NCBI GenBank assembly: GCA_026770585.1
Contig: MU647949.1
Coordinates: 2,327-33,857, forward strand
Length of the DNA: 31,531 nt
Source: Baffinella frigidus
Lineage: Eukaryota > Cryptophyceae > Cryptomonadales > Baffinellaceae
Direction of reading: 5' to 3'
Part shown: positions 162-31,134 of the stretch, piece after piece
Position numbering within the stretch: the first letter of the stretch is position 1
Layout: every line of letters begins with the position of its first letter
Notes under the pieces: generated by a model
What the model was told of the DNA's origin: nothing
What the model saw: only the letters and a program-made list of their open reading frames with translations
Database searches by the model: none
Program-made: the position numbers and the translations under genes

Positions 162-3100
162 GTGGCTCAAGAAGGCTTCTTGGAGATTGCCTGACTTGGA
201 AGGGCGTGGCATGACTGCCGATGCTTTGTTGCGGGAAACGACTATTTGAAGCATGCATAGAAAGGGTGTAAGCAAGCGATGGTACACGTTGGCAGGTGGT
301 GGCCTGCCGGCTGGCAATGGCGCTGCCGCGCGCCACTGGCAAGAAGATCTATGCCTACTACAAGGAGGAACACCTCAAGCTCTCGGTCAGCGCCCCATGC
401 AACCCTGTACCTAGCATCCTTCAAATCTTGCGTTGCAATAGGAATACGTTTGTTGTCTCTGCTTCAGGGTGGCGTCTCCCTCACCATCTCTTCTACACGT
501 GAGAGCAAGTCAGAGTCCCGCAGGCTCTCAATGTGAACCTCCGCCAAGCTTCAACTCTTGCTCTGCAACAGGAACATGTGTCCAACCAACCCCCCTCCAC
601 TGAATCAGTCAACCCGTCTTGAATCCGCCGACACCCCTTTCACCCGGTTTAGGGTTTAGGGTTTAGGGTTTAGGATTTAGGATTTAGGGTTTAGGGTTCG
701 TCTGCTACGGGTAACCGGGAAAGAGAAGGCGACTACAGAGGAGGTAACGGCGCTGGCCGTGTCTGCAGAGGAGGCTATCCTAAGGTGGGCTACTGCGCGA
801 CTTGGGCTGTCACGTGCCTGCCTGCAGGCGTACCTTGTTACGAACCACACGTGCACCACCAGAGTGAAGTGTGCTTGCTCGGCATCAGTCGCTTTACAAA
901 AGAGTGTTGTCCCTTGCGGCAGGCGCTGGGAGACGAGCAGGCGCAGAAAGATGAGATGATGAATGCTGATGAGGACCTGGACCGCCAGCGGCGAGGATCT
1001 GTGCATGCTGTCCAAGGCCTCCAAGACATGATGGTCACCCCCCCCCTCACCCACCAACCACCGACGGTCCACTGCACCCAACCAGGGTGTTGACCAGGAC
1101 GAAAACTGGTCAACGGGGAGGGGGAGCTTCGCAGCCACAGGTGACTCCCCGTACCATTTTTGCCCATCTAAAGCCTTCCTGGTAACACACACACAGCATT
1201 GGTGGCTGCCACCAATGTAGTGAGCCTCACGACCTGACCAATGTAGTGAGCCTCACGACCTGTGTCGCAAGAACAACGCCCACCGATCGCCGGGCGGCAC
1301 TCACATAGACCCCAACTCGACAGGCATCAATGCACTCACTGTAGTTTGAGGCACATCCGGCGATGCACACTTCTTTCGCAGGTGGTGCGGCGAGGAGGTG
1401 GGATTCCTTTGAGTCACCGCGCCCTGCACATTCTCTGAGTCACTCAGTCCGGCACTTCCCACCCCCCGCTGCCCGCCCCTGATGGGGCACCTGCCTGCGG
1501 GTGCGGCAGGTGCCCCCCCTCCCGGGTACTGACGGTCCCAGGTACTGACGGTACAGCCCCCCCCGGCAGGCAATCAAGTTCGGGCGGTCACGATCCAACG
1601 AATCCCTCGAAAATCTCGCGTCCACTGACTCAACCAAGATCCCCGCGCCTGTCGAGGACGCAACCAAGTGCCTCCTCTTTCCCGCGGGTGAGCGCGCGCT
1701 CAGTCGCACGGGGTCTCCCTCCTCACTCGAGAGCATCAAGCCGCACGGCGCGCTCAGTCGCACGGGGTCTCCCTCCTCACTCGAGAGCATCAAGCCGCAC
1801 GGTGCCCCTCCTCCCCCGCCCCCCCCCCGCTGTTTGCTCGAGAGGAGTTATCCCCCCTCCCATCGCAGCGGGTGACAACTGATACGAACGTGGGGAGTGG
1901 TCAGGTGGGTCAAGCGGGATGGCGAGGGAGAACTCAACGGACCGACCCGCCTCAAAAGAGCGACCCTTGGCACTCGAGATCGATCGATCCGGGCCGATCG
2001 AGCGCCTGATGCTCGCGGCATCAATCACGCCTGGGACCCCGCCCGCCAGTCGCCTGCTCAAGTCAGCCCTTCGGCAACCACACACCAACGAGGGTGGCTC
2101 GGTGGAGCCCAGCCCCAGGGCCGCAACGCCCCTTTCCAGCAAGTCGCTCGGCACCTCCGGTCTGTCTCCCCCCGCTCTTTCTGTGAGGATAGTGCGATTC
2201 AATCATCAGATGACACGGCCGGAAAGCTAGGCGTTTTCTGCACCTGCAACCACATAGCGCACTTTGAAGGGAATTTGAATAACCCTTGAGCGATAAGACC
2301 CAGGACCCTACAGTAGGCAACCCGCAGGGGTATAGGGGGGTTACTACGGATAATGAAAGGGAAACTCGGGCACTGAGTGCTCGAGAATCCCTGCGTAGCC
2401 CGCTGTGTAGGACACACCGCGGCGCCCTCTGAGTTCTAGACCTGCCGCTTCCGCCGCCTAGGAAATGTTGCCTTGGCCCTTGCTTGCTTTCATCGGGGGA
2501 CGTGCGTTCCTGCCCTCTCGTCTCTCCCGGCACTGCAGCCTGTCCGCGGTCGTGCTATGTCATGAACCATGAATGCTATGCGATGAAGCATGAGTGACGC
2601 AACGCTCTTTTCTTGTCCTTTTCTTTTGTGACGCTGGACGTTGCTCCATCTTGGCTCTGGACGCGAGAGAAGGCTTGACCCTCACGTTTGACGTGGTTGG
2701 TCGATCGGGGCGGCAGGCAATCAGGGGGCGAATCTGGGCGCGCATCCTCTGCTGCTCTGGGACGCGAATCGCGCGCTCGAGCGCCATTCGTTGCAACAAA
2801 TGGCCAAGGTGCCGCCTCAGGTCACTTGCTGCCCGCAGAACCGATATCCCTTACGTGGCGAGTAGGCTCATACACCCTACGATAGGGTCCTATGACTTGC
2901 CTAGGACCTGTAGGGGGTCCTTGAAGACCCCCTCGCCACTTAAGGGATAGCGAGATTGCAAGAGACAGATAGATTTCCTTGTTCAACTGGCGACGCCTCT
3001 TTCGCTGTTTCTAAGATATCGGCACTCGAGAAGCTGTGCAACCTGACACATGCACGATTCGTGCACGGTTCTGCCTCGGGTTATTGTCTCGCCATGATAG

Positions 3101-6100
3101 GTGCCTCATGATCGGTGTTGGATTGCTGCGTGAGACACGTGCGTCAGGTGTGGGTAAGGGGGCTCCAAGATAGTTGCCCCCGACCCACAACCGGATGGCC
3201 TCGCTTCCGATGAGACACCCGTGTACGACTGTTGCCTCAATTGACCTTTTCGCGGAACTCGGCCTGCCGGGGTTAGTCATCGTCCTGGAGTAATTCCTGT
3301 CCGGTTTAGTCAACACTCTTTACGGAAGAATATCCATCTGATGGATACTGACCCCACCCTCTTTGGTCTCCACACCATTCTTGACTCTAGCTAGGACCCC
3401 TGCTTCCTTCGCGTTTCTGGTTTCCTGAACCTTTTCCTGATAGTCAGGACGACTATCGGGTACAGGCTCCGTTTACGTTTCGTTTGCCGTCACCGGTGCA
3501 ACAGAAGCATGTCTGTCCCATCAGGTAACGCCGTCGAGACTGACTTTCGTGTCCCACCAGGCTTACTGACTCCCTCGTCCTAGCAGACTGACTGCCGGTT
3601 TGTCTACTCTTCTCTCTCTTGTTCGGCACGCTGACTGACTCTCTTGATCGGCAGGCTACCGCCATCGAGACGGAGGGCGTGCTCCTCCGATCGTCCCTGT
3701 ACTCAGACATCAAGGGTACGGAGGGTGAGCATTCTCAACTTCATCACTCGGACCTCGATCGGTCAGACGATCTTTCGCGTTTGGACAGAGAGAATGGCTC
3801 CAACGCCGAACCTTCGGACGGAAGGGAGCGTTCCGACGAATCCGGCTCCGACAATTCAGAGCACGAAGACGAAGACGAGTCGATTGCGTCTTCGTCCGTC
3901 GATGACAACGCTCCGGTGGTCAGGGCCCTCTCAAACATGATGCAATGGAACATTCGCTGTGCAGGCGAGGCCAGGGCGATTCCATGTGCACCCACATTCA
4001 CATTTTCAACACTTTCGTGTAATGTTGGGGAAGGGGATTGCGGCACGGTAAGGCTTTGATTGCGAAAGAGGTTGGTGACAAGGTGATTGCGAAAGAGGTT
4101 GGTGACAAGGGCCGTGCCTCGCGCGCAGGAGACCGTGCCTCGCGCGCAGTCGGGCGCGGGAGTCTCCGTCGCGGGAGCCGACTTCGGTTCCTACGAGCAC
4201 GTCTACTCTGCCACAAACACCGCCGCTGGCTTGCCAGGGTTGGCCGGGAGTGCGCAGGAGTCGGAGGAGGTCCCTGAGGAGGGCGGGGCGCTCATGCCCC
4301 CTTCCATCATCACCAGAGCAGCCTCTCACGAGGTGACTGCATGAGCACCGTTCTCGATTCCCACCCCCTGTTACTCCATTCAGGCGAGACTCCCAGTGAC
4401 GGCATGCAGGCTGCTCCGAGCAACGGTTTCGCAAAGCATGCGGCGACTATCCCGCACCATTGTTCGAGGGTGACCCAGCATGTGGTGGACCCGGAAGACG
4501 ACCCCGCTGGGCAGCGAGAGAGAGAGCGCGCGCGCGAGAGAGAGAGAGAGCGAGCGAGAGAGAGAGAGAGAGAGCGAGCGAGAGAGCGAGGGAGCGAGAA
4601 AGAAATAGAACGAGCAAGAGAGCGAGAGAGCGAAAGAGCGAGAGAGAGAGGTGGACAGACCGTGTACTAGAAAACCCTGCGGTTTGTCGACGGTGGTACG
4701 GGTGAGTCTCCGTGAGCGGCGGTAGATGTGTGTCGCGTCAGAAGTTGAGTTCTCGGGAGATCTCTGTTGATCGCCGCACCGAGGCGAGGTTCGTGGCAAA
4801 TCAGAAGCCAGCTTCCAATCGTTCAACTGTCGGAAACGTTTTGTGCCAGGAAAAGGCAAACCGTGTGGATATACAGTGAATTGAACCACAGTACTTCCCC
4901 CTTTGTGACGCAATGTGAATCCGCAGGATGATGATGATGACGATGATGATGAGGGGGGGGGGGGCGATAGGCCCAAGAGGCTCTCAGATTCGTCGGCCGC
5001 CCTCCGCGAGGTTGTCACCCTCTCCCGTAAGCCAGTCGCCTGATGTCAGGCTAAGCCAGTCGCCTGATGTCAGGCTTCTGTGCTACTAATCCCGCCCGGT
5101 ACCAATCAGCGTTTCTCCTGGCATTTTACCTCTGGTTTGTCTACTGTTGTGGTGCAAACCCTTCCCGGGTCAGCGGACACTCGGTACGGGGTACACTCGA
5201 GGTGGTGGCACGCCTCACAATCGCGAGATCATCTCATCATCCCATCATCTCATCATCTCCCGTAAGACAGACGCCAGGCTGGTTGTCTACCAGGATGCTA
5301 GCTGAACCGGGCATCTTTGCGTGAATCCATGCACACCAACCTACCTAATCGTTTCTAAGCTTGTAGTTCGCATTGTTACACATCCAATGCAGCTACGTTG
5401 ATGGCTCTCTCATGAGTTGGTTGCTTCTCTTGTGATTTAGATTTGATGGCGCTCTTGTGATTTGGGTGGGTCTCTGGTGATGTAGGTGGACCCCGAGGTG
5501 GAGGCGGACGTGATCAAGAGCGTGGTCGCGCGACAGTCGGTCTTGGATCGGTCAAGCACCTACGCCGTCGTCCTCTTCGCTCTCATCGCAATCAGCATCT
5601 GCTCGGTACCCACGTCTCCTACTCACGTCACTCGTCACCCTTCACCCTAAACCCTAAGATCATCAATCAATCCACCCAGGAGACTTCAACGGGGTTTTGA
5701 ATAATACCTAAGCGATACGACCTAGGACCCTACAATAGGCAATCCGCAGTGACATAGGGGGGTTCCTACAGATAAGGTAACGGAAACTCGGGCTCTCAGA
5801 GCCCGAAATTGCCTTGGTAGCCCGCTGTGTGGAGTGAGTGGGTGGCCACTCTGCAAACCGCAGCACCCTCGGAATGCAAAGAGTATGCTTCTCGTCTACG
5901 TTCTTTCTCCCCCCCCCCCCTCTTTCTCGTGTCACATGGTTTCTCCAAGAACGGACAGTACAGCGGGCGCGCTGTGCGTGGATCGCTGGGCTCTCATCTT
6001 GGCGTGGATCGCTGTGCTCGGGTCTGATGTGATCTGACGCACTCCCACTGCTCTGATCTGACGTACTCCCTACTGCTGTCCTCTGACGCACTCCCACTGG

Positions 6101-12500: not shown

Positions 12501-13617
12501 TTGTATCACTCAATTTAAAACTCGCAAGTAAAAGAAGAAGAAGAACAAGACGACAAAGAAGAAGAAGAAGAAGAAACAATAAATAAATATAAAAAAACAG
12601 CAAAAGGTGTGTGTGTGTGGGGGGGGGTGATGACCAGCTCTTGTTGGTCCTCGGTGAGCAGCTCATCCTGAGGTGTCTCCACGTCCAAGATGATGTCCAG
12701 CGCGTAGTCATAGTACGGCACCTGTCAGGGTTTTAGGTGTTTCAACAGGTTGTGAACCATCACCAGGTTATGAGGTATCGGATGAGAGTAGTACGGCATC
12801 TGCTCAGGTTATGGATCAGGCACCATATCAACACAACAGGTTATGGTCTTTCAACAGGTTATGAAGTATCGAACAGGTTATCGGACATCGAAAGGTTATG
12901 AGGTATCAGAGAAGAGGAGGCCACCCTGCCCGGTCCAGATGCTGTTTTCGGGAAACAGGGTTGCGGGTTGAGGAAAGAGAGTGACGACAGGTTATGACGC
13001 CCCACAGAGGCGCGCGGCCATGCGTTGGAGGGCAGAGTGTGGCAACCAGGCCAGAGTTTGCGGCAACCAGAACAGCATGCCGGTATTCGCAGACCAACAT
13101 GCTACGTTTTGCTGCCCTTTCCGTGTCAAAGGGTGCGCGAAGCCGAGCGGAGGTCCCGCTACATAATAGCTACCCTGTTTGTTGGCTCTGCCGTCCATTT
13201 CGTTACACTCTGGCTTGTACCCGGTGGTCACGTATTTTGGAAGACCCCCTAAAGGTCCGAACGGTGAGCAAGGTCCCAACAGTGAGCAAGATCCGAAGGG
13301 TGAGCACCGATCAGGCGAGGGGGCGTGCAACATCGAGCTCTGCCTTGCTCGGGTTCACCGACTATCCTCACGTTGACATGCCGCATCTAAGGTACATATC
13401 CGTCAACTTTGGCTGGAAACGAGCCCGGGCTCTTTTCGGCTCTTTTCCAAATTGGAGAGGCGAAAAAGACAGAGGCAGCGGTAGAACCTGGGAGCCGAGA
13501 CCGGTGAGGTTGAAGTCATCCTGCACGTAGTCTTCCGCTACCTGTCCCACTCCAGAGAAACGTCAGACTGCCGCACACATCCCGAGCGAGAGAGAATTCG
13601 AGAGAGAGAGAGAGAGG

Positions 13618-13659
<42 letters not shown>

Positions 13660-15130: not shown

Positions 15131-15133
15131 GGG

Positions 15134-17273: not shown

Positions 17274-17345
17274 GTGGCGGTGGCGGAGTGCGGGGATGCC
17301 AAGGAGAAGAGCCTCAAGATGTTCCTTGCTGAGGCGCGCCAGCAG
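17274..17345 (+). CDS. Coiled-coil gene, exon 1 (first seen)
   Basis: 24 codons, gcAG to CAG|GTGCGT: VAVAECGDAKEKSLKMFLAE then ARQQ. Phase 0 start implies upstream exons or a missed start. Confidence 0.8.
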
Positions 17346-20300: not shown

Positions 20301-23300
20301 ACATCGAAACACGGATAGGCCGAGGCGCACGAAGGGTGCAGATGCCGAAAAGTGATGCCGAAACACTGACTGACAGGCGGAGGCGCACGAAGGGAGTGCG
20401 GCAGCCGAGGCGAGAGCGTCGAGCCTCGGGGCTTCTCTCGAGCGTTCGCGCGCCGATCTTGCTGCGGGGGAGGCTGCTCGCGTACGCACCCCCCCGATGT
20501 CTTTTCTTCTTCTTCTTCTTCTTCTTTATTACTCTCGATACAGGTCCTAGGTAGGCCCTTGAGCCTTGAGATGAGTGATACAAAATTTTATGAGCCTTAA
20601 GCAACGAGCCCGGCTCGGATACGTGCGCCCGATTGTTGTAGCCATGCCTCTCTCGGGTTGATCGTCAGGCTGTTCTGTTGACGTGCTGGGTGTGCGGTGC
20701 ACATCCGTCAACTTTGGAGCGGGGTAGTGCTCTGGTGGTGCCCACCTTGGCGTTCAAGGATGCGGGAATGCATCATACTAAATGACAACGGAGTGCAGGT
20801 GCACCTTGAGGAGGAGGCAGCATCGCGCCTGAGCAGCGCGCGCGACGACACCAACCAGGCGCGGGCGCGCGGGGTGGCGGCGGCAGGCGCAGCGCTGCAG
20901 AAGCAGGCGCGACGCGGCACGCTCCGCGGGGGCCTCGAGGCGCTGCGTGATGCGGTCGCGGCGCACGCCGCGCGCACCCACCGCGCCTCGGCCATCGCGC
21001 TGCGCGGGGCCACCCCTGGTGCGCGCAACGCCGTGCTGGCGTGGCATGCGCTCACCGCGCGCGCCGCGCGCCTGCGCGTGGCCGTGCGCGCCATCCTCTG
21101 CCGCGCCCAGGCGGTCAGCATGCGGAGGGTGCTGGGGCGCTGGGGGGCGCTCACGGCTGATAAGGCCAACGCCTGTGGCGCGGCAGCTGCGCGCGCGGTG
21201 CGTCCCGTTGCCTCCCTCTGCCTCGCGCGGGGTCGCGCTCAGACTATCATCACGTTGCCATGCTGGGGTTGCGGGACACATCCGTCAATTCGGGAGCGGG
21301 AAATAGCCCGGGCGCGCCACATTGGTGAGCCCAAATAGACTGAGGCAGAGCTAGGAGGCGGACCCGCCCGCCCGCCCTGCCGTGCAGTTGTGCGCCTGGT
21401 ACACGGTTCCTGACGCTCACGCGACCCTCTGTGTGCGTGTGGTTCCTACTAGGAGGGGCTCCTAGGAGGAAACGGTTGCGTGCAGCGGCAGGTGACAAGT
21501 CGCGGGGCTGAGAATGCGCGGACGTGGGATGGTGTGGCAGGTGGCGGTGCACGCGCGCGGCGTCGGGGGTGTCTTTCAGGTGCGAGACCCTCTGCCTCCC
21601 TACATCACCCCTCGCCGTGTTTCGTCTCAGCCTGACACCCAATGTCAGTGAGTTGACCCGAGGCTGCCACCCAATGCCAGTCAATCCACTCACTCCTGCC
21701 ACCCAACGTCAATTGCCCCGAGGTTGACGCCGAATGGCAATTGACGCGAGGATGGCACCCAAAGTCAGCTGACTTGCGCCGCTTCATCCGGGTGTGAGCG
21801 CCGCTTCCCCTCATCTCGACATCTCATCTCGTCGCCATGTCTCCTCTCTCTCTGCAGCGCGAGGCCGACACCTGCCGGCAGCCGTGGCTCTGTCGCACTA
21901 CTTTGTACCCCACCACCATCATGCGTCCGATCTCAGTCATCAACACAGTCACCCCTACACCAATGCTCAACGCAGGCAGTTGACGAATTGCAACCCGGTA
22001 TTTGGATGGGGCAGGCGTGGCGTGGCGCGGCGGAGCGGGCGGTGCATGGGGGAGGCGGCGGCGCAGGAGAGGCTGCTGCGCGCATGGCTGCTCGCCTCGT
22101 CCGCGCGTCCCTCCAAGGTCTTACCACTACCTTACTTTCCCCGCAAACCTCGGCTGTCCAAATCTGCGTACCGTCAAAGTGTCTCGCCGCCCAGGGCGCG
22201 CGCGCGCGCGCGCGCGCGCGCGCGCCAGAGAGAGAGAGAGAGCGTCGCCAAGGATTGAGGAGAGATGGCGTTGCGTCGAGAGCTGCCCTGACGGTTTGCC
22301 AAAATGCGTTTCTCAGACCACGCTGGTAACAGTCCTGGGAAACGTTAATGTTTCCCGGAAATGCTTGGCGGGGCTGGGCTGGTGGGCGCGTGGGTACAGC
22401 GTTGCGTCGAGAGGTGAGGTGACTGTTGGCAGATGACAGAAATGGCGTGACAGCTTTTCACAATGCTGCAGCATTGGCGTGGTTATGCGCAAGGTGCTGA
22501 TGGATGCCGGGTCTCACTTGTTGGCGAGAGGTGACGTGACTGCTGACCTGTCACGAGAGGTGAGGTAACTGTTGGCGTGGCGCGTGGCAGGGCGCCGAAA
22601 GTGGGCGCGTTGCTCCGAGAGGTCACGTGACTATTGGCAGCCATGCGTGGTCGTAACATGGTCAGCCATTGCACTGCATGTCCTCAAACCTAGGGTTCAC
22701 GTGGCGCGTGGCAGAGATGGTGTGCGCGTGGGCAGAGCATTTTGTGTCGAGAGGTGAGCTGACTGTTGCCGTGGCGCGGGGCAGGGTTGGTATTGGTACT
22801 GCTGACCTGGCACGAGAGGTGAGGTGACAGTTAGCGTGGCGCGTGGCAGGGGTGGTGGGCGCGTGGGCAGAAGAGGCAGCGCGCGGCGCGAGGCGTGTTC
22901 GCCTTTCCATTCGCGCTGCCCGCCTCGACCAACGGTGAGCCTGCCACTCGAGCCTAGAAATGTCACCATTTTAAGACCGGGCTTCATTTACAGGTGGGGC
23001 GGTGTGTAGTAATTTGCCTCCATCCTCGACCAACGGTGCCCCCCCACTGCCTACCTCTGTATTCTGTCTATTTCGGCTCACCATTTCGGCGATCCCTCTC
23101 GCTCCAAAGTTGACGGATTTGTACCGCACGCCCGGCATGTCATCTCGAGAATCGTCGGTCAACCCGAGTGAGGCAGAGCGAGACTCTGTCTCTCGATCCG
23201 CGTGGTCCGCCTCGAGTAACGGCAAGACAGCACACCCTCATTATGGCGTCATCCTACTTCCGGCATTCCGTATCGCCCTACGGTATTGCATACGGTAGCA

Positions 23301-26300
23301 CTCTACGGAATGCCGCAACAGGATGACGCCGGAAGTAGGGCCTCCATGCTTACCACTCCGTCCTCCGACGTGAAGCATTTGCAAGGTCAGACAGAGTGAG
23401 AGCGAGAGAGAGAGAGAGTGTGTGTGTGTGAGAGAGAGAGGGAGAGTGCGTGTACATTTTCCAAAACTGCACTAGCGGGGTCTTGGGAATGTTTTGGGGG
23501 GTTTAGAGGTGGGACGTGGTGACAGTCCCTCGCGTCATCACGCCCCACTTCTCCAGGTGAGAAGCACCCCCCCCCCCTACCCCCCCTCTCCATCCCACAC
23601 CCACCTACCCCTCTGCAATCCAAAACAAAGGGTGGGGCCCTGCCACGCCTGGTCACAGTGGATATTTCAGACACAAGTCTTGGTTTTAATTTTGTACCAG
23701 GGTTTTCGGAACCGGGTAGACGCCCGGACGTGGAAAGGACGAGGAGTTGCGTTTCACCGGGGAGCGCTCACTCATTTAGTACCACGAAACGAAACGTCGC
23801 GTTCTGAAATTCCAAATTGTGCCCTGGCGTGACAGGCGCGAGGGGGTGCTGTTCGCGAGCGCGTTCAAGGAGCTCTGCGTCCGCGCGGCCGGCTCTAGAA
23901 CGTTCTAGAACGCTATCCGCGGTTAATGGGGGCACTAGCACCGCGTGACCACCTCGTGACTGACCCTGGTGGGCCTGCAGGCGCGAGGGGGCGGTGATCG
24001 CATTCGCGTTCGAGGAGCTCTGCGCGCGCGCGGCCGACGCCCGCCACCGCGCGGCGGTACCCCACACTCTTAACCCCAAACCCGAAACCCGAAACCATAA
24101 ACCATAAACCATACACCATAAACCATACACCATAAACCATAAACCCTAAACCCGGAACCCCGAACCCTAAACCCTCAGGTTGCTGCGTCCGACGCCGCGG
24201 CGAAGCGGGATACGGAGGAGGCGGAGGCCGCGGCAGGGCGTGCCGTCGCGGCCGCTCAGGTCTAGACCCTAAACCCTAAACACTAAACCCTAAATCCTAA
24301 ACCCTCAACCCTAACCCTAAACCCTGAACCCTAAACCCTAAACCCTAACGCTAAACCCTAAACCCTAAACCCTAAACCCTAAACCCTAAACCCCATACCC
24401 TAAACCCTAAACCCTAAACCTTAAACCCTGCACCCTAAGCCCTAAACCCTAAACCCGAATCCTTGGGGTGGCGGCACCGCACGCCCAGGCCTAACCCCAG
24501 AAGCCGAAACCCTTGCCTCCAGGAGGCGGCGGGGGTGCGGGTGGACCAGGCGCGTGTGGATGCCGAGGGGCAGGTGGATGCGGCGAAGGTGGCGGCGCAG
24601 TGGCAAGTGGAGGAGGCGGAGGCTGGGGCGGAGAGACGCGTGGGGGAGGCGAGTGCTGCGGCGGAGGGGCGGGTGGCGGAGGCGGAGGAGGGGAGGAGGG
24701 TCGAGGTGGAGGCTGCGCGGGCGGAGTGCGAGGAGGGGGTGAGGGAGGCGGAGGGGAGGAGTAAGGCTGCTGTGGAGGCGGGGAAGAGGGTGGTCAGGTT
24801 CACACCCTACACCTACACCCAAACCCTGCAACCTAAACCCTGCGGCTTAAACCCTAAACCCTAAACCCTAAACCTCAAACCCTGAACCCTAAATCCTAAA
24901 CCCTAAACCCTAAATCCTAAACCCTAAACCCTAATTTCGACACCCGAAACCCGAAATCCGACACCCGACACCCTACACCCTAAACCCTAAACCCTAAACT
25001 CTCAACCCTAAACCCTAAATCCTAAATCCTGAACCCTGAACCCTAAACCCGAAACCCTCAACAAGGGGGGCGGAGGAATCGCGGGATGCAGCGGTCGCGG
25101 AGATGCAGGTCTCACCCCGAAACCCGAATCCCAAAACTCAAAACCCCAACCCTAAACCCTAAACCCTAAACGTGAAACCTAGCTCTGCCTCACGCGTTTT
25201 GGTCCCGCCAATTTGGCGAGACCGGAAGTCAATTCCCCGAATTGGGGTTTGTTGTACAATCGTCAACTGTTCGAGTGAAAAAGATCAGTCAACCCGAGTC
25301 AGGCATAGCTAGGAAACGGAAAAGAGCCTGGGTGCTTGGAACCCTAGGGCACTGGACTTTTCCAAATTGGACATTCTTGGTGTGCGGAGTGTTGAAGCGG
25401 AGGGGCTTCTAGTTTGGGAGCGTCGAAGACTCTGTGGCCTGGAAACAAGTGTTGACGCGGATGCGCTTTCCGCGCCAGGTCATAAGTCGGAATTAAATTT
25501 TACTACACCATCTACGTGTGAAGATGATTCTAACCCGGAAAACACGCCAAAGGTGTTTTCACGCCAAAAGTGGGATTGGAGCTCTCTGCCGCCGCTACTA
25601 AGTTTTTTGAAACTTTTAGCGCGAAGCGTTGCGTTTGAAATTCTTGCTTATGTATGACCTGGCGTGGCCCTTGTGGCGCAGGGGCTCGAGAAGAAGATCC
25701 GCGATCACGAAGATGCTCTCGCTATCGCTCAGGTCCAACCCCTCAACCCTCAACCCTCAACCCCAAACCCTCAACCCTAAAACCCCGAATCCGGAACGGC
25801 AGAGTCGAGATCGAGTCTAGTCCCCACACCTACTAGGTTATATCTCAGATTTTGGCGTGGCGCTGGAGCTATTTCGTGCTTTTAGGGTTTTAACATATCA
25901 GGATGTGTACCGGAAATCCCTTAGATGGACGCGTTGCGAGATAGAAGCAGGTGACGTAGGTGACGCGATGAGGTCCGGACCCCCCCTCATTCGGGACTTT
26001 CGCACCCGCCCTCCCACACCAAGAGTTTCGATGGTGTGGGTCTGGCAGATTTGTACCGGGAGTGCGCTGCTTTCCAGCGCTCCCTGGTACAAATCGGGGG
26101 TTTGCCGCACGATGAAAGTAGTTTACTTCGTGGCTGGACGCTTTTGGTTGTTTGGGACCACTGGTGGACCGTGAAGTGTGTTGCGTCGATGGATCATTGC
26201 TTCTTGGCCCCTGAGGCTCTCCGTGTCACGACGTGGCAGCGTGTGAGCCCCTTCAGTGTTGCTTCTTGCTCTCCTGCCTTCTGAAACAAGACACGATCCC

Positions 26301-29300
26301 TCTGAGGGTGTTCCTGTGACGAGTGGCGCAGCGAGGGAACCGCTTGAGTGTTGCGTGTGGGGCGGATACGTGCGCAACCCATCTAACACCCTCTTTCTCA
26401 AGCTCCTCGTGTTGCGTCTGAGCCAATACGTTCTGAAAAATACACCGCCGTGTGACGATGGGAGCAGCGGGTGAACCGAATGCACGAAGAGTCAATGGCC
26501 AAGCTCGAAAGCGAGTGGGGCTGATGATGCGTAGGCTGATGATACGCGCAACACCCGATTTGTGAGCAGAGGGTGAACCGGATGCACGAGGAGTCAATGG
26601 CCACGCTCGAAAGCAAGGTCGCGGAGGCTGAGCTCCTCCAGACCAAGCTCACCCAGGCGTCCGAGGCCCTTTCTCTCTCGCAGGTGCCCTCTAGATGCCC
26701 CCCCCCCTCCCTTGATCCGATCGAGACACTCAAGACACTCGCATGTGCAGCTAGACACACCCGACACTATCATAGCTCGTCACACCCGACACACCCAGGA
26801 CTTTTTGGAAACGTGAAAGTCGTGGGTGTGTCGGGTAGTCGAGCTATGCTGATGCATGCTCTGCCACTGCGGCCGACGTTCAACATGAGCAGGAACGGCA
26901 CGCATCTTCATCTTGGCGTTTGTCAGATGATGCTTTTCGACGCACGCCATGCGAAACAGATGCTATCGGGTGACGCGATCGGACCCTTTGGTCCGATCGA
27001 GATGCTCGCCTGCCCACCTCGCCTGTTCAAGGTGAGCAGGAAGTTTCTTGCATCGAGCAGAGTGAGTTGCCACTACCGGATCTCGACTTTTCTGGGACGA
27101 TGCCAGCGGCGACCCCTGAGACGTGGGTGGTGTATGTCTTACGCTGGGTGTATGTCTTACGCTGGTTGTATGCCTTACGCCTGGTGTATGTCTTACGCTT
27201 GGTGACGGGCCGCGCGTGGTGGCAGATGGCGTCAGAGGCCAAGGATTCAGACCTTCTGGCGTCGCGCGCCCAGGCCGAAATGCTCCAGGCACCCCAAACC
27301 CTAAACCCTAAACCCTAAACCCTGAACCTTAGACCCTAAACCCTAAACCCTAAACCCTAAACCCTAAACCCTAGACCCTCAACCCAAAACCCTAAACCCT
27401 AAACCCCAAATCCTAAACCCTAAGCCCTAAACCAGGCCACGGTCCAAGACCTGCAGTCCGAGGTCTCCAAGCTCGAGACCCGCCAGTATCCCCCCTCCCC
27501 CCCTGTCACCGCGGGCCACTCTGCTCGCTGCGAGAAATTCCCTCTCCCCTCGCGCGAGTCCTGGGTGTGCGACACGGCGTTGGGGTTGCGCATGTGGCCA
27601 TCAGTGGGGTTGCTCATGTGGCGCACGCGGTGGCCGTGTTTCGGCTCAGTCAGTCTGGGCTCCTCAGTAAATACATGTAGATGCTGTTTGCACGGGAGCG
27701 TCCCTGATGTGGCTTCGCACGCTGTGAGCAAGGAGGAGGACGGACCTCCCTCCCCTCCCCTCCCCTCGCGCGAGTCACGCGCCGTCGGGGTTGCTCATTT
27801 GTCTCACGGAGGGTGATGCGTGGAGGGTCATACCTTTCGGCGAGCAGGGAGGAGGACGCGTCATGAGCGACACACGCGGAGTGCGCAGGGAGCGATCTGG
27901 CTCGTTTATTGTACAGTTGTATAGTTAGTTGTACAGTTGTACAGTTAGGTGTACAGTTGTCAAGGGATCTGGCTCGTGCACACCTCCCTGTGCGCCCGAA
28001 CCCTACACCCTAAATCATGCCTGTGCGCAGGGAGGAAGACGGGTCATCAGCGAACGTTGTCGCTCTCGAGCGGGAGACGCACGGCTTGCGACGGCGCAAC
28101 TCCACTCTTCAGGTTCTTCTTCCTCTTCCTTACCTCTCTCGATACAGGTCCTAGGTAGGCCCATGAGGCTTGAGGTGCCTTACGCCGCAACTCCACTCTC
28201 CAGGTTCTCGCCATGCCCTCCGCATGATGAGGGTAGATCATCATGCGGGGTAGATACCCGGACAGCTCTGTCCGACTAAATTTGGTCGCATCATCGTTAT
28301 TAGTTTTTAGAAGGGTCTCCAGTACAAATTGCCATGCCATCATCACCAAATTGCCATGCCATCGTCACCAAATTGCCATGCCATCATCACCAAATTGCCA
28401 TGCCATCATCACCAAATTGCCATGCCATCATCACCAGCCTCATTCTTGCAAGGGCTCGCCACACGTCAATTCCCCGGAAGGGATAAGGGGGAAGTGTTTA
28501 CTTTTGGCATAGTTGGAACGCCGGAAGTGGCGTTCCCACATGGAGCTACCCCCTCCAGAAGTCTGGCGTGACATGCGGGGTAGATACCGCATCTGCTTGT
28601 CGGGGGCGCGAGAACAATGTGGGTTTGGTCCAAGAGGAGAGAGCATCTTCTGAAGGTTGCGAGCCTGTGCGCTCCACGCCGGACATGGTTCCTCGAAAGT
28701 GGCTCGCACCCCATAAGTTGTTATCCGCGTGAGCAGGCTGAGATGGACACAAAGGTAGAGGCGGCCATCCACACATGCATGGCGTACGCATGCGAGTATC
28801 TTGGCCGGCGTGTCTTTGCGCTGGATGGGGCGCCCCGGTGTCGGACGTTGACTCCGCGTGGTGCGCAGGCGAAGATGGACACCATCGGGGACGCGTGCGT
28901 GTCGAACCCGCAGTCGCGTCCCAGGGAGAGTGTGTGTGGCGTGTCTAACACCGAGTCTCGTCCGGTTCGCAGGCTGAGATGGACACCAAGGCCGAGGCGC
29001 TGGCCGCGTCGGAGACTCGCATCCTGGTCCGCTTCCGAGAACACACCCACACACCATTCATTGCCTACCGTAGGGTCCTATGGATATTCACTTGAGGGTT
29101 CAGCGCTGAAACGCGCGGCAAACAACCGCGTCGGAGACTCGAATCCTGGCCCGCTTCTTCAACTCTCCCACTGCCGTAGGGTATGTGGCTACGGATTGCC
29201 CTACGGATTGCCTACTGTAGGGTCCTATGCCTGTCCACCTGAGGGTTAAACGCGTCGGAGACTCGCGTCCTGGCCCGTATCCGAAAACATTCCCACACCC

Positions 29301-31134
29301 TACGGATTGCCTACCGTAGGGTATGTCCCTACAGATTGCCTACCGTAGGGTATATCCCTACAGATTGCCTACCGTAGGGTATGTCCCTAGGGATTGCCTA
29401 CCGTAGGATCATATGGATACTCACTCAAGGGTCAACGCTGAAACGCGTGACAAACAACCAGGAGGTCGCCGTGTCAAAAAGCATCACCAACACACGCCCC
29501 AGAGTGGGAATCCTAGCTCTGCCTCACACGGTTGGGTATCATCACAATGATGAGACCGGAGGTCAATTTCCCGGGGTTCAGTGCAAACCCGGCAACGTGT
29601 GGGGTGGAAACGATCAGCCAGCCCGAGTGAGACAGAGCTAGGAATCAACACCTGGCACGCACGAAGCTGCGCGTGCCCTCTTGCCACCCGTGTGCTCCGA
29701 CCGCGCGTCTAATAAACGGGCGCCAAAAAAAAACGTGGCAAATACCCCCGTACTAACAACGACGGCGCGGTACTAATCTAGGACGCACCCCGTGCAGGCG
29801 GTGGAACAGCAAGTGTCGCGCCTGCGCGAGGAGGCTCTCGCCGCTGCCTCTGCCGCCAAGGTCCGACACCCCTCCCACGTCCTCTCTCTCTCTCTCTCTC
29901 TCTCGTTATCTCTCTCTCTCTCTCTCTCCATTTCTCTCTCTCCCCCCATCTCTCGCTCTCTCTCTCTGGCACGCGCCTGGCGCTCCAGGCAACTCGCTGC
30001 GGCGAAGCATCGATTCGATTGGTACGCGAGTTGCTTCGATTCGATGCGACTTTTGTGCGCCGCAAGTTGCCGTCGGCTGACCGTGTCGGGTGGTGGGGGG
30101 CTCACACCTGTCAGGTGGGAGGAGGAGGCTCACGGTGTCGGCTTGTTTTTGGGTGGGGGGGCTGACGCGGTGTCGGGTTGGTTGGCGAGAGAGGGGGGCA
30201 GAAGAGGGGGGCGGGTGGCGGCGGAGAGGCAGAAGGCTAACCATCTCTCTCGCTCTCTTTCTCCCTCTCTCTCTCCCTCTCTCTCTCCCTCCCTCTCTCT
30301 CTCTCGCAGGGGCGGGTGGCGGCGGTGTGCGGAGAGAGGCAAGAGGCTGAGCGATCGTTTCTTCGCTTCCGCGGGGAAGTTGAGGAGCGCGCTCGCGCTG
30401 AGGTCCGAATCTCTCTCATAAACACACACACTCTCTCTCTCTCTCGCTCTCTCTTTCTCTCTCTCTCTCTCACACACACTTTCTCTCTCTGCCCCCCCCT
30501 CTCTCGAGATCGCTCTATCTCTCTCTGGTTCTGCCCCTTTACCCGCGCCGAAGTCCGATCTTTCTCTCTCTCCCCTTCCCCCTCTGTTTGTCTCTCTCTC
30601 TCTCTCTTTCTATGTATCTCGCTCTCTCGGGGGGGGTCGGGTTCTCCCGTCATTGATTGCATAGAGGCACGGCGGAAGGAAACCTGAAGCGCAGCTGCGC
30701 CCCTGCAGGAAGATGCTTGAGACAGCCCCTCCTGCAGCAAGCACGCTCCGATCGCAACCTCACATTTCCCGCCTGGCACAACATATAACCTCAAACCCCA
30801 CCCCAACCCTCAAATCCTCAACCCCAAATTCCAAACTCCAAACCCTGAACCATGAACCCTGAAACCTAGAATCCAAACCGCAAACCCGAAACTCCGTTTG
30901 ACGTTACGCCAGATCGAAGCGAAGGAGGCAGAGGCGCGTCTCTGTCGCATTCACCTTATGCTATCTTACGGGTGGATTATACGCTAGGGCAAATCTATGC
31001 AGATGCTAAGATAGCAAACCCCGCCCTCAAGATAAAGCAAACCCGCGTTTGAAAAGTGGGGCGACCCCATGCGGCAGATCGAAGCGAAAGAGGCAGAGGC
31101 GCGGGCGCTGCGCGCACACCTCGCTACCCTCCAG
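17274..31134 (+). CDS. Long coiled-coil protein with Sfi1-like Trp units (27 or more exons, partial)
   Basis: No ortholog named. The exons listed join into about 820 residues running out of the window. Nearly all are Ala/Glu/Gln/Arg/Lys heptad sequence (for example NVLKQRLADLAE, EALREEVGLLKTAAYKQEQAL, KVAEAELLQTKLTQA). The middle, 20799-22493, adds Trp-centred helices (NAVLAWHALTARAARL, MRRVLGRWGALTADK, RLLRAWLLASS, MLQHWRGYAQ), resembling the spaced Trp repeats of centrin-binding Sfi1-type proteins. By family logic this suggests a basal body, centrosome or flagellar-root filament protein; this is inference. Most introns are phase 0. Phase breaks near 22.5-24 kb and 27.5-28 kb mean an exon is missing or misjudged at each. 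Many of its introns carry partial copies of adjacent exon edges. No start codon or stop was found. Confidence 0.8.
17490..17563 (+). CDS. Coiled-coil gene, exon 2
   Basis: NEELKKLFEQSRAISLAQAD then RAQR and a split Glu, accAG to CGAGA|GTAAAT. Confidence 0.85.
17683..17860 (+). CDS. Coiled-coil gene, exon 3
   Basis: 59 codons after cacAG, phase 2 in, donor GAG|GTGTGC. Helical, with ARLKAEVGAHAGEIRSLTEE and EEINVLKQRLADLAE. Confidence 0.88.
18218..18319 (+). CDS. Coiled-coil gene, exon 4 (GC donor)
   Basis: 34 codons: QRAALEKQEEALREEVGLLK then TAAYKQEQALREQ. Phase 0 joining to exon 5 needs the donor CAG|GCACGT, a GC-AG intron. Confidence 0.82.
18696..18715 (+). repeat. Head echo of exon 5
   Basis: cgcAG|GCGAACCGGGCGTCGAAGGC copies the first 20 nt of exon 5 with one change, 208 bp upstream; a TGTAGGG array lies between. 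Confidence 0.92.
18785..18868. repeat. TGTAGGG variant array
   Basis: About eleven nearly identical GTGTAGG heptamers, a variant of the telomere-type unit, on the plus (sense) strand. Confidence 0.95.
18904..19023 (+). CDS. Coiled-coil gene, exon 5
   Basis: 40 codons, ggcAG to GCG|GTGCGT: NRASKAETSAATAQEQSLLE then VRALLERSTEGRERDRVRA. Confidence 0.88.
19195..19340. repeat. Dispersed element, family C
   Basis: Shares CCAACGTTGACGGATTTGTA, CCGCACxCCxxGCATGTCA and CAACCxGAGTGAGGCAGAGC with 23060-23190; ends in the inverted-repeat motif of the family B MITEs. Confidence 0.85.
19385..19515. repeat. CCCTAAA/CCCTCAA tract
   Basis: Telomere-type C-strand repeat in the gene sense, with CCCTCAA variants, ending at the first echo of exon 6. 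Confidence 0.95.
19522..19772 (+). repeat. Three head echoes of exon 6
   Basis: Copies begin at 19522 (AQALERAEKNEP), 19618 (AASLEVAENNEP) and about 19742 (LALEGAEKNE). Each ends in GAACGAACxCT and passes straight into CCCTAAA/CTCAAACC repeat. The first two keep an acceptor AG; the third has gcATG. Confidence 0.92.
19842..19916 (+). CDS. Coiled-coil gene, exon 6
   Basis: 25 codons after ggcAG: AGALEGAEKSLAGLAAKVQD then AQREA; donor GCG|GTCTAC. It is the fourth and only complete copy of its head. Confidence 0.85.
19917..20072. repeat. CCCTAAA tract with variants
   Basis: Degenerate CCCTAAA, CCCTGAA and AACCTAA repeats in the gene sense, starting about 10 nt after the donor. Confidence 0.92.
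20317..20341 (+). repeat. Head echo of exon 7
   Basis: GCCGAGGCGCACGAAGGGTG repeats the exon 7 start GCGGAGGCGCACGAAGGGAG 60 bp upstream; its acceptor AG has become AG followed by GC. Confidence 0.85.
20377..20481 (+). CDS. Coiled-coil gene, exon 7
   Basis: 35 codons, gacAG to CGC|GTACGC: AEAHEGSAAAEARASSLGAS then LERSRADLAAGEAAR. Confidence 0.82.
20505..20577. repeat. Dispersed element shared with 28113-28182
   Basis: (TTC)n followed by CTCTCGATACAGGTCCTAGG and TAGGCCCTTGAGCCTTGAG; lies directly after exon 7. Confidence 0.85.
20799..21197 (+). CDS. Coiled-coil gene, exon 8 (Trp units)
   Basis: 133 codons, tgcAG to GCG|GTGCGT, phase 0, Ala/Arg-rich with GC-ending codons. NAVLAWHALTARAARLRVAV and MRRVLGRWGALTADK are Trp-centred helices, Sfi1-like. 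Confidence 0.9.
21262..21352. repeat. Fragment of family C/B element
   Basis: ACACATCCGTCAATTCGGGA and GACTGAGGCAGAGCTAGGAG are family blocks; the left inverted end is missing. Confidence 0.7.
21541..21579 (+). CDS. Coiled-coil gene, exon 9 (candidate)
   Basis: VAVHARGVGGVFQ between ggcAG and CAG|GTGCGA, phase 0. Short, so supported only by phase. Confidence 0.4.
21858..21904 (+). CDS. Coiled-coil gene, exon 10 (candidate)
   Basis: READTCRQPWLCRTT plus a split Leu, ctgcAG to CTTT|GTACCC; phase 2 out fits the next exon. Confidence 0.45.
22015..22117 (+). CDS. Coiled-coil gene, exon 11 (Trp unit)
   Basis: 34 codons, phase 2 in, AAG|GTCTTA out: RCMGEAAAQERLLRAWLLAS then SARPSK. The Trp spacing resembles exon 8. 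Confidence 0.65.
22195..22242. repeat. GC dinucleotide then GA repeat
   Basis: About 14 CG dinucleotides followed by AGAGAG; potential alternating purine-pyrimidine Z-DNA tract. Confidence 0.95.
22370..22905. repeat. Degenerate minisatellite with GAGAGGTGAGGTGACTGTTGG units
   Basis: At least six diverged units combining GTGGCGCGTGGCAG, GGGCGCGTGGGCAGAG and CGAGAGGTGAGGTGACTGTTG. Each bears possible GGTGAG donors and GGCAG acceptors. A small exon (22454-22493) lies within. Confidence 0.85.
22454..22493 (+). CDS. Coiled-coil gene, exon 12 (candidate Trp unit)
   Basis: LFTMLQHWRGYAQ between gacAG and CAAG|GTGCTG. Strongly Sfi1-like, but its phase 1 end does not fit the next recognised exon. 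Confidence 0.5.
23060..23190. repeat. Dispersed element, family C
   Basis: GTTGACGGATTTGTACCGCA, CGGCATGTCA and CAACCCGAGTGAGGCAGAGC in the same order as at 19195-19340. Confidence 0.85.
23245..23330. repeat. Foldback element, 86 bp
   Basis: GGCGTCATCCT...CGGCATTCCGTA at the left is the inverse of TACGGAATGCCG...AGGATGACGCC at the right; the loop has TACGGTA-type palindromes. Confidence 0.92.
23836..23895 (+). repeat. Head echo of exon 13 (60 bp)
   Basis: gacAG|GCGCGAGGGGGTGCTGTTCG onward copies most of exon 13 145 bp upstream: REGVLFASAFKELCVRAAG against REGAVIAFAFEELCARAAD. It then runs into the palindrome TCTAGAACGTTCTAGA (23894-23909) and a stop. Confidence 0.93.
23981..24056 (+). CDS. 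Coiled-coil gene, exon 13
   Basis: 25 codons, phase 2 in, GCG|GTACCC out: REGAVIAFAFEELCARAADA then RHRAA. Confidence 0.8.
24060..24177. repeat. CCCGAAA/ACCATAA/CCCTAAA tract
   Basis: Telomere-like units and an ACCATAAACCATACA sub-array fill the whole intron between exons 13 and 14, right up to the acceptor. Confidence 0.93.
24179..24259 (+). CDS. Coiled-coil gene, exon 14
   Basis: 27 codons, ctcAG to CAG|GTCTAG: AASDAAAKRDTEEAEAAAGR then AVAAAQ. Confidence 0.85.
24262..24465. repeat. CCCTAAA tract, 200 bp
   Basis: Long, nearly regular telomere-type repeat beginning 2-3 nt after the donor of exon 14. Confidence 0.97.
24523..24797 (+). CDS. Coiled-coil gene, exon 15 (purine-rich)
   Basis: 91 codons plus a split codon, tccAG to CAG|GTTCAC (phase 2). 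Built from GAGGCGGAG-type codons: Ala/Glu/Val/Arg helix with KVAAQWQVEEAEAGAERRVG. The sense strand is extremely G-rich and C-poor. Confidence 0.85.
24805..25060. repeat. CCCTAAA tract with variants
   Basis: Regular CCCTAAA with CCCGAAA, CCCTGAA and CCCTCAA islands; fills the intron between exons 15 and 16. Confidence 0.96.
25066..25108 (+). CDS. Coiled-coil gene, exon 16
   Basis: GAEESRDAAVAEMQ, acaAG to CAG|GTCTCA, phase 2 in, which matches exon 15. Confidence 0.72.
25179..25312. mobile_element. MITE-like element, family B, with 5-bp TSD
   Basis: Left end CTAGCTCTGCCTCACG, right end GTCAGGCATAGCTAG (imperfect inverses), flanked by GAAAC at 25174-25178 and 25313-25317. 134 bp, non-coding. 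An almost identical architecture occurs at 29513-29641. Confidence 0.88.
25538..25560. repeat. Short perfect hairpin
   Basis: GAAAACAC/GTGTTTTC with a 7-nt loop, inside an AT-richer intron stretch (25340-25670) that has an open frame but no coding support. Confidence 0.8.
25682..25732 (+). CDS. Coiled-coil gene, exon 17
   Basis: GLEKKIRDHEDALAIAQ, gcAG to CAG|GTCCAA, phase 0. Confidence 0.8.
25733..25795. repeat. CCCTCAA/CCCTAAA tract
   Basis: Short telomere-like array starting directly after the donor of exon 17. Confidence 0.88.
26048..26095. repeat. Foldback, 48 bp
   Basis: GATTTGTACC and GGTACAAATC at the ends, with an inner GxGCGCTG/CAGCGCTC pair around TTTC. The motif GATTTGTACC recurs in family C elements. 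Confidence 0.9.
26468..26516 (+). repeat. Head echo of exon 18 (49 bp)
   Basis: gcAG|CGGGTGAACCGAATGCACGA onward reproduces RVNRMHEESMAKLESE, then reads WG-stop. It sits 102 bp before the true exon and keeps a usable acceptor. Confidence 0.94.
26570..26683 (+). CDS. Coiled-coil gene, exon 18
   Basis: 38 codons, gcAG to CAG|GTGCCC: RVNRMHEESMATLESKVAEA then ELLQTKLTQASEALSLSQ. Clear heptads. Confidence 0.9.
26771..26848. repeat. Long foldback, about 33-bp arms
   Basis: CATAGCTCG...ACCCGACACACCCAGGACTTT pairs with AAAGTCGTGGGTGTGTCGGG...CGAGCTATG across an 11-nt loop. Non-coding. Confidence 0.92.
26976..26999. repeat. Perfect 10-bp-arm palindrome
   Basis: CGATCGGACC/GGTCCGATCG around CTTT; the right half recurs as GATCCGATCGAGACACTC at 26714. 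Confidence 0.85.
27131..27202. repeat. 18-bp tandem repeat, four copies
   Basis: TGTATGTCTTACGCTGGT units with small changes, shortly before the exon 19 acceptor. Confidence 0.95.
27226..27288 (+). CDS. Coiled-coil gene, exon 19 (GC donor)
   Basis: 21 codons after ggcAG: MASEAKDSDLLASRAQAEML then Q. Ends CAG|GCACCC, the second GC-AG candidate. Confidence 0.82.
27290..27433. repeat. CCCTAAA tract
   Basis: Fills the whole intron between exons 19 and 20, from donor to acceptor. Confidence 0.96.
27436..27486 (+). CDS. Coiled-coil gene, exon 20 (3' end unsure)
   Basis: ATVQDLQSEVSKLETRQ after accAG. No GT or GC donor follows directly (CAG|TATCCC), and the frame stays open to 27835, so the end is uncertain. 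Confidence 0.65.
27731..27870 (+). repeat. Two head echoes of exon 21
   Basis: AGGAGGAGGACGG at 27731-27743 and gcAG|GGAGGAGGACGCGTCATGAG at 27848-27870 copy the exon 21 start GGAGGAAGACGGGTCATCAG. Confidence 0.82.
28031..28112 (+). CDS. Coiled-coil gene, exon 21
   Basis: 27 codons, phase 2 in, CAG|GTTCTT out: EEDGSSANVVALERETHGLR then RRNSTLQ. Confidence 0.78.
28113..28182. repeat. Dispersed element between two copies of an exon end
   Basis: TCTCGATACAGGTCCTAGGT then AGGCCC...GAGxCTTGAG, preceded by a TTCTTC tract, is shared with 20505-20575. Here it is flanked by two copies of the 24-nt exon 21 end plus donor. Confidence 0.85.
28184..28208 (+). repeat. Tail echo of exon 21
   Basis: CGCAACTCCACTCTCCAGGT and TCT repeat the exon end and donor at 28096-28117 (one C/T change inside the 20-mer). 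Confidence 0.92.
28242..28588. repeat. Segment bounded by 17-bp direct repeats
   Basis: CATGCGGGGTAGATACC occurs at 28242-28258 and 28572-28588. Between them lie a 22-bp tandem array and the hairpin GGAACGCC/GGCGTTCC. The left repeat is preceded by CGCATGATGA/TCATCATGCG. Confidence 0.85.
28326..28435. repeat. 22-bp tandem repeat, five copies
   Basis: AAATTGCCATGCCATCATCA(CC), one base differing in the second copy. Head-to-tail without spacers. Confidence 0.98.
28737..28895 (+). repeat. Two head echoes of exon 22
   Basis: gcAG|GCTGAGATGGACACAAAGGT (28737) and gcAG|GCGAAGATGGACACCATCGG (28869) copy the exon 22 head GCTGAGATGGACACCAAGGC; both keep the acceptor. Confidence 0.93.
28973..29026 (+). 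CDS. Coiled-coil gene, exon 22
   Basis: AEMDTKAEALAASETRIL, cgcAG to CTG|GTCCGC, phase 0. Echoes occur on both sides. Confidence 0.82.
29075..29460. repeat. Palindromic GATTGCCTACCGTAGGG array
   Basis: Two copies of a TATGGATA...CACTxxAGGGT...CGCTGAAACGCG block (29090-29125, 29410-29450) enclose repeated GGATTGCCTACCGTAGGG units; related to family A. Confidence 0.88.
29127..29281 (+). repeat. Two tail echoes of exon 22
   Basis: GCGTCGGAGACTCG(A/C)(A/G)TCC then TGGCCCG at 29128 and 29252 copy the exon end and intron start (TCGGAGACTCGCATCCTGGT). The donor GT is changed to GC in both. Confidence 0.92.
29513..29641. mobile_element. MITE-like element, family B, with 5-bp TSD
   Basis: Left CTAGCTCTGCCTCAC, right GTGAGACAGAGCTAG, flanked by GAATC at 29508-29512 and 29642-29646. 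129 bp, no coding capacity. Internal GATGAGACCGGAGGTCAATT matches 25179-25312. Confidence 0.9.
29798..29860 (+). CDS. Coiled-coil gene, exon 23
   Basis: VEQQVSRLREEALAAASAAK after a first Ala, tgcAG to AAG|GTCCGA, phase 0. Confidence 0.88.
29879..29968. repeat. CT simple repeat
   Basis: CTCTCT tract starting about 20 nt after the donor of exon 23. Confidence 0.95.
30209..30237 (+). repeat. Head echo of exon 24
   Basis: GGGCGGGTGGCGGCGGAGAG then GCAGAAGGC copies the exon 24 head with a 6-nt deletion (GRVAAERQKA against GRVAAVCGERQEA); a CT tract separates them. Confidence 0.85.
30310..30402 (+). CDS. Coiled-coil gene, exon 24
   Basis: 31 codons, cgcAG to GAG|GTCCGA: RVAAVCGERQEAERSFLRFR and GEVEERARAE. 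Confidence 0.86.
30431..30630. repeat. CT-rich tract with a tail echo of exon 24
   Basis: CTCTCT repeats interrupted at 30544-30560 by CGCGCCGAAGTCCGATCT, a copy of the exon 24 end plus donor (CGCGCTGAGGTCCGAATCT). Confidence 0.85.
30790..30895. repeat. Degenerate telomere-like tract
   Basis: CCCTCAA, CCCTGAA and CCCAAA units ahead of the echo of exon 25. Confidence 0.85.
30913..30940 (+). repeat. Head echo of exon 25
   Basis: gccAG|ATCGAAGCGAAGGAGGCAGA onward matches the first 26 nt of exon 25 with one change, 165 bp upstream. Confidence 0.93.
30959..31016. repeat. Small element with 10-bp inverted ends
   Basis: TGCTATCTTA and TAAGATAGCA are exact inverses 38 nt apart; it lies between the echo and exon 25. 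Confidence 0.85.
31078..31134 (+). CDS. Coiled-coil gene, exon 25 (GC donor)
   Basis: IEAKEAEARALRAHLATLQ, ggcAG to CAG|GCACAC, the third GC-AG candidate. (Exon numbers here follow recognised order; some intervening ones may be missing.). Confidence 0.83.

Follow-up and report, generated by a model that had tools for sequence, protein, structure and literature searches.

The locus examined here raises the question of how an intron comes to carry partial copies of the edge of its neighbouring exon. The window, that is, the whole stretch of 31,531 nucleotides from Baffinella frigidus that was analysed, is a eukaryotic nuclear stretch taken from an assembly of 382 Mb in 1,364 contigs, where it occupies positions 2327-33857 of its contig. 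It contains three intron-rich genes, in which 38 introns were defined. Gene 1 lies on the plus strand and ends at 8679, and seven of its exons entered the analysis. Gene 2, on the minus strand, is casein kinase II (CK2) beta. Its best database match, the B. frigidus protein P0001, aligns with 15350-9466 in exact segments from residue 4 on, and this deposited gene model takes the CK2 beta exon edges and ignores the three echoes in the gene. Gene 3 (plus strand, 17274-31134) forms a single open frame of 852 codons from 23 joined exons, and its product of at least 852 residues appears coiled-coil-like by eye. A GC donor replaces GT in two introns of gene 3 (18320 and 27289), and GC was also seen at some of the predicted donors of the chaperonin genes considered below.

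The 45-nt edge of each exon was compared with the adjoining intron by Smith-Waterman alignment, with a cut-off score of 15 or more. In the three genes of the window, the exon start was found again in its own intron (head echo) in 11 of 38 introns and the exon end (tail echo) in 3 of 38, while the same cut-off was reached by 1 of 2,760 mismatched exon/intron pairs. The 95th percentile of this null distribution was a score of 10, and a score of 11 was reached by 3.3% of it. The exon-edge echoes that the original prediction had claimed are therefore real. On the wrong side, matches reached the cut-off for 0 of 38 heads and 1 of 38 tails, and we read this sole tail match as a head echo, a long one, from an exon of 76 nt. 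All 23 places that had been listed as echoes showed similarity on alignment, but their strength was unequal. Three of them (27731, 12789-12809 and 30544) are so short that the score alone cannot separate them from chance; the echo at 30209 is short as well, yet it consists of 17 perfect nucleotides. The stated start of the echo region, 1694, is a 55-nt perfect tandem duplication (1694-1802, plus strand; offset 54, unit 54-55 nt, from the offset scan) in which no exon is involved, and it reflects the generic process.

Both the alignment and the offset scan recovered a set of plus-strand head echoes, those of exon 7025 (6825-6863, block -11 to +28), exon 8602 (8421-8449), exon 18904 (18692-18715), exon 20377 (20311-20336), exon 23981 (23826-23891, 56 exon nt), exon 26570 (26459-26515, 48 exon nt of which 43 are identical), exon 28031 (27828-27870), exon 28973 (28724-28763, and a second one at 28857-28886), exon 30310 (30208-30224, short) and exon 31078 (30907-30938). 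The same holds for the two tail echoes of the plus-strand exon ending at 29026, which run 24 nt (29126-29171) and 40 nt (29251-29312) into the intron, and on the minus strand for the tail echo of the CK2 beta exon ending at 11808 (11669-11699), which reaches 3 nt across the donor. Alignment gave the second head echo of exon 7025, with about 15 exon nt (6902-6931, plus), a weak head echo of exon 28031 with an exon part of 12/14 (27720-27745, plus), a weak tail echo of the exon ending at 30402 (30531-30560, plus) and a weak head echo of the CK2 beta exon starting at 12721 (12787-12808, minus), which is short and near chance by score. A tail echo of the exon ending at 22934 (23012-23053, plus), absent from the earlier list, was seen on alignment, and its 15-nt core was recovered in the offset scan. 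Two further tail echoes cross the donor. That of the CK2 beta exon ending at 14049 (13844-13873, minus) agrees at 12/13 exon and 12/14 intron positions, and that of the exon ending at 28112 (28182-28208, plus) has a dispersed repeat in its spacer. Exon 19842 has three head echoes (19513-19549, 19604-19645 and 19732-19766, plus), all inside a tandem unit of two 119-nt copies that are 90% identical at an offset of 217 (19475-19810, plus).

In the residue-level alignments, the echo blocks span from 1 to about 38 nt of intron and about 15-60 nt of exon. Since the copies carry intron bases, they are DNA copies and were not derived from spliced RNA. Within 24 hand-chosen pairs, the identity was 205/257 in the intron part and 525/614 in the exon part. 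In the same pairs, the first, second and third codon positions differed in 25/206, 24/205 and 40/203 cases (12, 12 and 20%), the intron part of these blocks differed by 20%, and several gaps in the echoes were not multiples of three. This pattern points to a free copy beside a constrained exon: changes at positions 1 and 2 fall mostly in one of the two sequences, those at position 3 and in the intron part in both. The echoes are dead DNA copies under neutral decay.

The AG was retained in 19 of 22 head-echo rows, in one of them in a shifted register, which makes most head echoes candidate decoys. Real acceptors scored 3.07 and those echo sites that have AG scored 1.93 (P 0.13); the real sites of the window were part of the training set. 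The donor scores of two rows (CK2 beta 14049 and 30402) were out of register and were left aside. It is plausible that the head echoes are decoy acceptors, and the spliceosome may face choices between nearly equal real and echo sites.

The original prediction also held that the order is fixed, with heads upstream and tails downstream of the exon, and that the process extends beyond the window. Loci elsewhere in the genome were read with a purpose-built gene finder trained on the window, which predicted eight chains, two of them in loci chosen for carrying a dispersed element. When one gene was left out at a time, this finder overlapped 30 of 34 internal exons and placed 16 of 34 exactly, and 13 of its 49 predictions overlapped no exon. 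In the predicted introns elsewhere, a score of 15 or more was reached by 13 of 54 heads and 12 of 54 tails, against 0.06% of 3,516 null pairs. Wrong-side matches there amounted to 9/54 and 5/54, which we attribute to short exons, whose 45-nt windows overlap, and to mispredicted exons. Because errors of the gene finder give wrong-side matches, we relied on the copies that cross a junction and on two chaperonin genes, CCT alpha and delta, 25 exons of which were checked by homology to solved T-complex subunits.

The junction-crossing totals count copies and not exons, and several exons have more than one copy. In the window, 12 heads lay upstream and 5 tails downstream, the wrong side was empty, and 2 further matches do not cross the junction. 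The eight predicted genes, in which 39 exons of at least 45 nt were counted and predicted exons were masked, gave 15 heads upstream, 13 tails downstream and none on the wrong side, with 9 non-crossing matches besides (side unrecorded). At a slightly lower cut-off, CCT alpha and delta gave 6 heads upstream, 5 tails downstream and again an empty wrong side; at least one echo was found for 9 of the 25 exons. Of the 6 non-crossing matches in these two genes, 3 consist of a telomere-like intron flank alone and the other 3 lie upstream. All 33 heads were thus upstream and all 23 tails downstream (56:0). The claimed order is strict for junction-crossing copies, and the claimed spread beyond the window is borne out by the eight predicted and two chaperonin genes.

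Queries made of exon sequence only, from 105 exons, found heads 27 times upstream and once downstream, tails 18 times downstream and never upstream, 15 interior copies (6 upstream and 9 downstream, mostly from predicted exons) and one whole exon. Inverted exon copies within 1 kb of the 105 exons numbered 0 at the same cut-off. The order and the lack of inversions argue against copying to random nearby places, which would give both sides and both orientations. Direct copies that stay in place (56:0, with no inverted copy at 105 exons) are what tandem duplication from a staggered break gives. The fixed order is expected because duplication in place keeps both copies and strands the dead one on the intron side, the used copy being the one still joined to the body of the exon.

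The original prediction had further taken the process to be aimed at exon-intron junctions, and this part was not supported. Duplicate pairs were counted by an offset scan, since a blastn self-comparison missed close tandems. The window contains 95 direct pairs at offsets of 10-1,200 nt, compared with 2 at 6,000-7,190 nt; 68 of the near pairs are intron-intron, 17 exon-intron, 8 intergenic and 2 exon-exon. Elsewhere, 37 kb of readable sequence gave 266 near pairs against 2 far ones, and in such pair counts one repeat family enters many times. Direct local duplication is rampant in this genome. It covers 17.5% of the introns of the window and 5.8% of the sequence outside the gene models. Random intron 12-mers of the window lie inside local duplicates in 13.5% of cases, and the first 12 nt of the exon do so for 12 of 38 exon starts, or 11 without one exon-exon match (binomial P 0.003 or 0.01). 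Head coverage is therefore about 2.3-fold above the intron background (2.2-fold with 11), whereas the last 12 nt of the exon, covered in 4 of 38 cases, are at background. In the chaperonin genes, the edges are near background (heads 4/23 and tails 5/23, against 13.9% and 12.0%). A junction-specific hot spot was accordingly rejected, only the window heads standing above the background. Part of their excess is expected, since the exon copy decays mainly on one side, and slower decay of the exon side may be the explanation.

The duplicates take more than one form. Outside the exon models, four tandems are perfect and contiguous, their units measuring 24-54 nt, and two 17-nt repeats, also perfect, have their copies 2 and 4 nt apart. 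Contiguous exon-intron pairs numbered 0 of 17, and the shortest spacers dissected were 32, 36 and 45 nt. Of the young pairs, 34 of 44 are spaced, some of these being non-adjacent members of an array or members of one repeat family. Ten spaced pairs are identical; in the five that were dissected, flanks of 21-42 nt enclose fillers that measure 77-279 nt. The best young case concerns an exon tail in a predicted locus elsewhere (L009, 6338-6379), where 42-nt identical flanks surround a chimeric filler. The first part of this filler consists of 48 nt that recur, inverted and 94% identical, at a site 2.3 kb off; the second part is a dispersed repeat cut short after its first ~50 nt. This repeat has at least 39 other copies at 92-98% (40 of 1,136 candidates scored), and the five that were aligned all run on past this point. 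Of the other four fillers, two matched the 108 kb compared once at most, a third is a palindromic repeat, and the last, at locus L011, agrees with the far side in the way expected of a tandem unit.

Simple tandem duplication, by which the original prediction had explained the order, fits only some of these structures. The spacer matched the far side of the echo above every null comparison in 10 of 30 dissected events, two of them narrowly. The unit at 19475-19810 is an example of a plain tandem of edge plus intron, but this expectation failed in the other 20 events, so two forms must be mixed. Fillers had a match elsewhere in 9 of 31 cases and control intron segments in 13 of 80, and the filler that was resolved carries just a fragment of an element; the idea that the spacers are whole elements was thus unsupported. 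Within an intron, the donor flank resembled the acceptor flank no more closely than it resembled that of other introns (permutation P 0.62, n = 37), and flanking repeats at both intron ends, as a sign of recent intron gain, were found in none of the 37 introns.

The direct orientation of the copies, their order, their spread and their neutral decay were observed, as was chimeric filler in one case. From these we infer break repair as the cause, together with a splicing filter and the pathway that follows. We consider it probable that the echoes originated by in-place direct duplication during break repair, filtered by splicing. The non-coding DNA of this alga would be hit repeatedly by direct duplications in place, of about 15 to 70 nt and sometimes of a unit of about 200 nt, which most likely arise when a staggered break, or a pair of nicks, is repaired by fill-in and joining, and filler DNA copied from elsewhere would often enter at the join. 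Within introns, the outcome would be a pair of direct repeats round a spacer. For a block lying across a splice junction, the copy on the outer side, still joined to the rest of the exon, would be used, and the inner copy would be left in the intron to decay. Splicing would survive only if the spacer or the block brought in pyrimidines and a branch site without introducing a stronger competitor. Such a filter would explain why no contiguous exon-intron pair was found and why CCCTAAA or CT tracts, which lack AG, are common in the spacers.

In rice, patch-mediated break repair was reportedly described by Vaughn and Bennetzen in 2014 as a source of small tandem duplications. Paired nicks with 43-nt 3' overhangs gave small tandem duplications through fill-in by CST and Pol alpha-primase (PMC8355091), and such duplications also came from staggered breaks, with end joining (NHEJ) involved (PMC5730883). 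These products resemble ours in being direct, in place and tens of bases long, some of the fresh cases here being perfect tandems. They differ in that about one third of the exons here (9/25 in the chaperonin genes) echo their own edge in the intron and that filler is common. The intron gain by AGGT tandem duplication (PMC3443670, PMC2891723) likewise involves a duplication with splice signals inside a gene, but in the introns studied here growth seems to occur at a junction already present. Break repair has also been invoked for direct repeats found at the borders of introns (PMC11782384). Those repeats pair the 5' with the 3' border over 4-30 bp, whereas here one border recurs inside its own intron.

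A tentative alternative is serial template switching, in which a polymerase leaves after the block, copies elsewhere, returns upstream and recopies the block, so that block, filler and block stand in place. The chimeric filler at L009, with an inverted local piece joined to a truncated dispersed repeat, speaks for this route, and it predicts the same order rule as was observed. It is unnecessary for the perfect tandems without filler, and only one filler was resolved. Insertion of an introner-like or MITE element with a long target duplication straddling the junction seems improbable to us. Short inverted-repeat elements do occur in many copies, one of them with at least 39 further copies (40 of 909 candidates scored), and some spacers carry dispersed repeats, 9 out of 31 fillers matching other places. 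That fraction is only somewhat above the 13 of 80 of the control segments, the flanks vary from 21 to 42 nt in the dissected cases, and a complete element with fixed ends and a target duplication of fixed length was not found in the one resolved event, the filler of which has just a fragment. The introners of the parasitic dinoflagellate Amoebophrya (PMC7789003) are comparable as repeated intronic inverted-repeat elements in a protist genome; their boundary direct repeats measure 3-5 nt, and our resolved filler is not a complete element.

Repair may also capture nearby DNA at one break and paste it at another, as in the repair-mediated duplication of vertebrates. The source (PMC2671141) describes proximal duplicates that include splice sites, and short local duplicates and chimeric pieces are common to that system and ours. 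Its copies are pasted at other sites, one exon copy being inverted, whereas the order here is fixed. With no inverted copy at 105 exons, heads 27 to 1 upstream and tails 18 to 0 downstream, order and orientation speak strongly against a free choice of side and direction. The 15 interior copies favour no side, and we regard capture and pasting as highly improbable. It is also very doubtful that selection maintains the echoes as alternative edges of exons. Most head echoes keep the AG and their acceptor scores are not clearly lower, but the mismatches at positions 1 and 2 are those of a neutral copy and several gaps are not in threes; the codon-position pattern led us to reject conserved alternative edges.

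Besides the duplication in place preferred here, the telomere-type arrays in the introns need attention. As exact heptamers on the sense strand, CCCTAAA occurs 91 times and TTTAGGG 2 times in the introns of the window, 73 and 5 times in the predicted introns elsewhere (where the strand was set by the finder trained on the window), and 72 and 1 times in the chaperonin introns (where it was fixed by homology), which gives 236 against 8 for all loci together. The intron at 27289-27435 (plus) is almost wholly CCCTAAA-like, with a coverage of 0.90, and the coverage is 0.50-0.68 in introns 11-13 of gene 3 and introns 7-8 of CK2 beta. The heptamers occur in introns of all three genes, for example at 24057-25065 and 10689-11137 besides 27289-27435. 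The arrays occupy the spacers of some echoes. The CCCTAAA strand contains neither AG nor GT, while TTTAGGG is a string of acceptor-like sites. The strand bias may come from selection by splicing or from a strand-specific mechanism.

One pathway behind both the echoes and the CCCTAAA arrays, namely telomere enzymes acting at ordinary breaks, is conceivable but rather unlikely. A break with long 3' overhangs would sometimes be extended by telomerase, and CST with Pol alpha-primase, the C-strand machinery, would fill in afterwards. If both overhangs were filled, the flank would be duplicated and the added repeat would be the filler. At junctions, the duplicated flank would restore the exon, and the C-rich strand, without AG or GT, would be invisible to splicing. 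Interstitial telomere-type arrays are also known from telomeric repeats inserted at breaks, where the flanks were duplicated in a minority of cases (PMC2246262). The arrays in our introns differ from these in being almost all sense CCCTAAA and in making up 0.90 of one intron. If telomere enzymes do act in this way, each telomere-type insertion by which an intron grows would arrive with a spare junction of its own.

Other repeats were noted in the same introns. An element of about 140 nt at 28433-28570 has imperfect inverted ends (CACGCCAGA..TCTGGCGTG); the scoring of 40 out of 909 candidates gave at least 39 more copies, 82-88% identical. A family of short intronic elements is formed by 25186-25315 and 29520-29644, with the inverted ends CCTAGCTCTGCCTCAC / GTGAGGCAGAGCTAGG as read by eye, and a second group of short elements in introns comprises 13338-13484, 19212-19331, 20645-20722, 21216-21354 and 23068-23179. 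A (TTC)n..CTCTCGATACAGGTCC element, introner-like in our view, begins in the sense direction at or near the donor of three introns (20510-20573, 28114-28177 and L009 6523-6588). A CK2 beta intron contains a 48-nt palindrome (92%) at 11435-11482, near the tail echo at 11669, and a dispersed 148-nt repeat with 80% identity is present at two places, 2261-2408 and 5683-5830.

According to the original prediction, no named system is known with this signature. The type of duplication event is known; to our knowledge, its density, the ordered exon-edge mark and the spacer bias have not been described. A search of the literature on introns and introners of this alga or of cryptophytes, with most subscription journals outside its scope, found nothing alike.

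Gene predictors will call the echoes as exons, as our own finder did at 2333-2374 of locus L030 (gene-sense coordinates). The echoes also set real splice sites beside naturally occurring decoys of almost the same sequence, and such pairs are useful for studying how the spliceosome picks its site. The growth of introns without breakage of the gene is usually hard to see, since its scars are elsewhere rare or erased. In this alga the scars are dense, ordered and of varied age, so that duplication, tolerance by splicing and decay could be dated within one genome.
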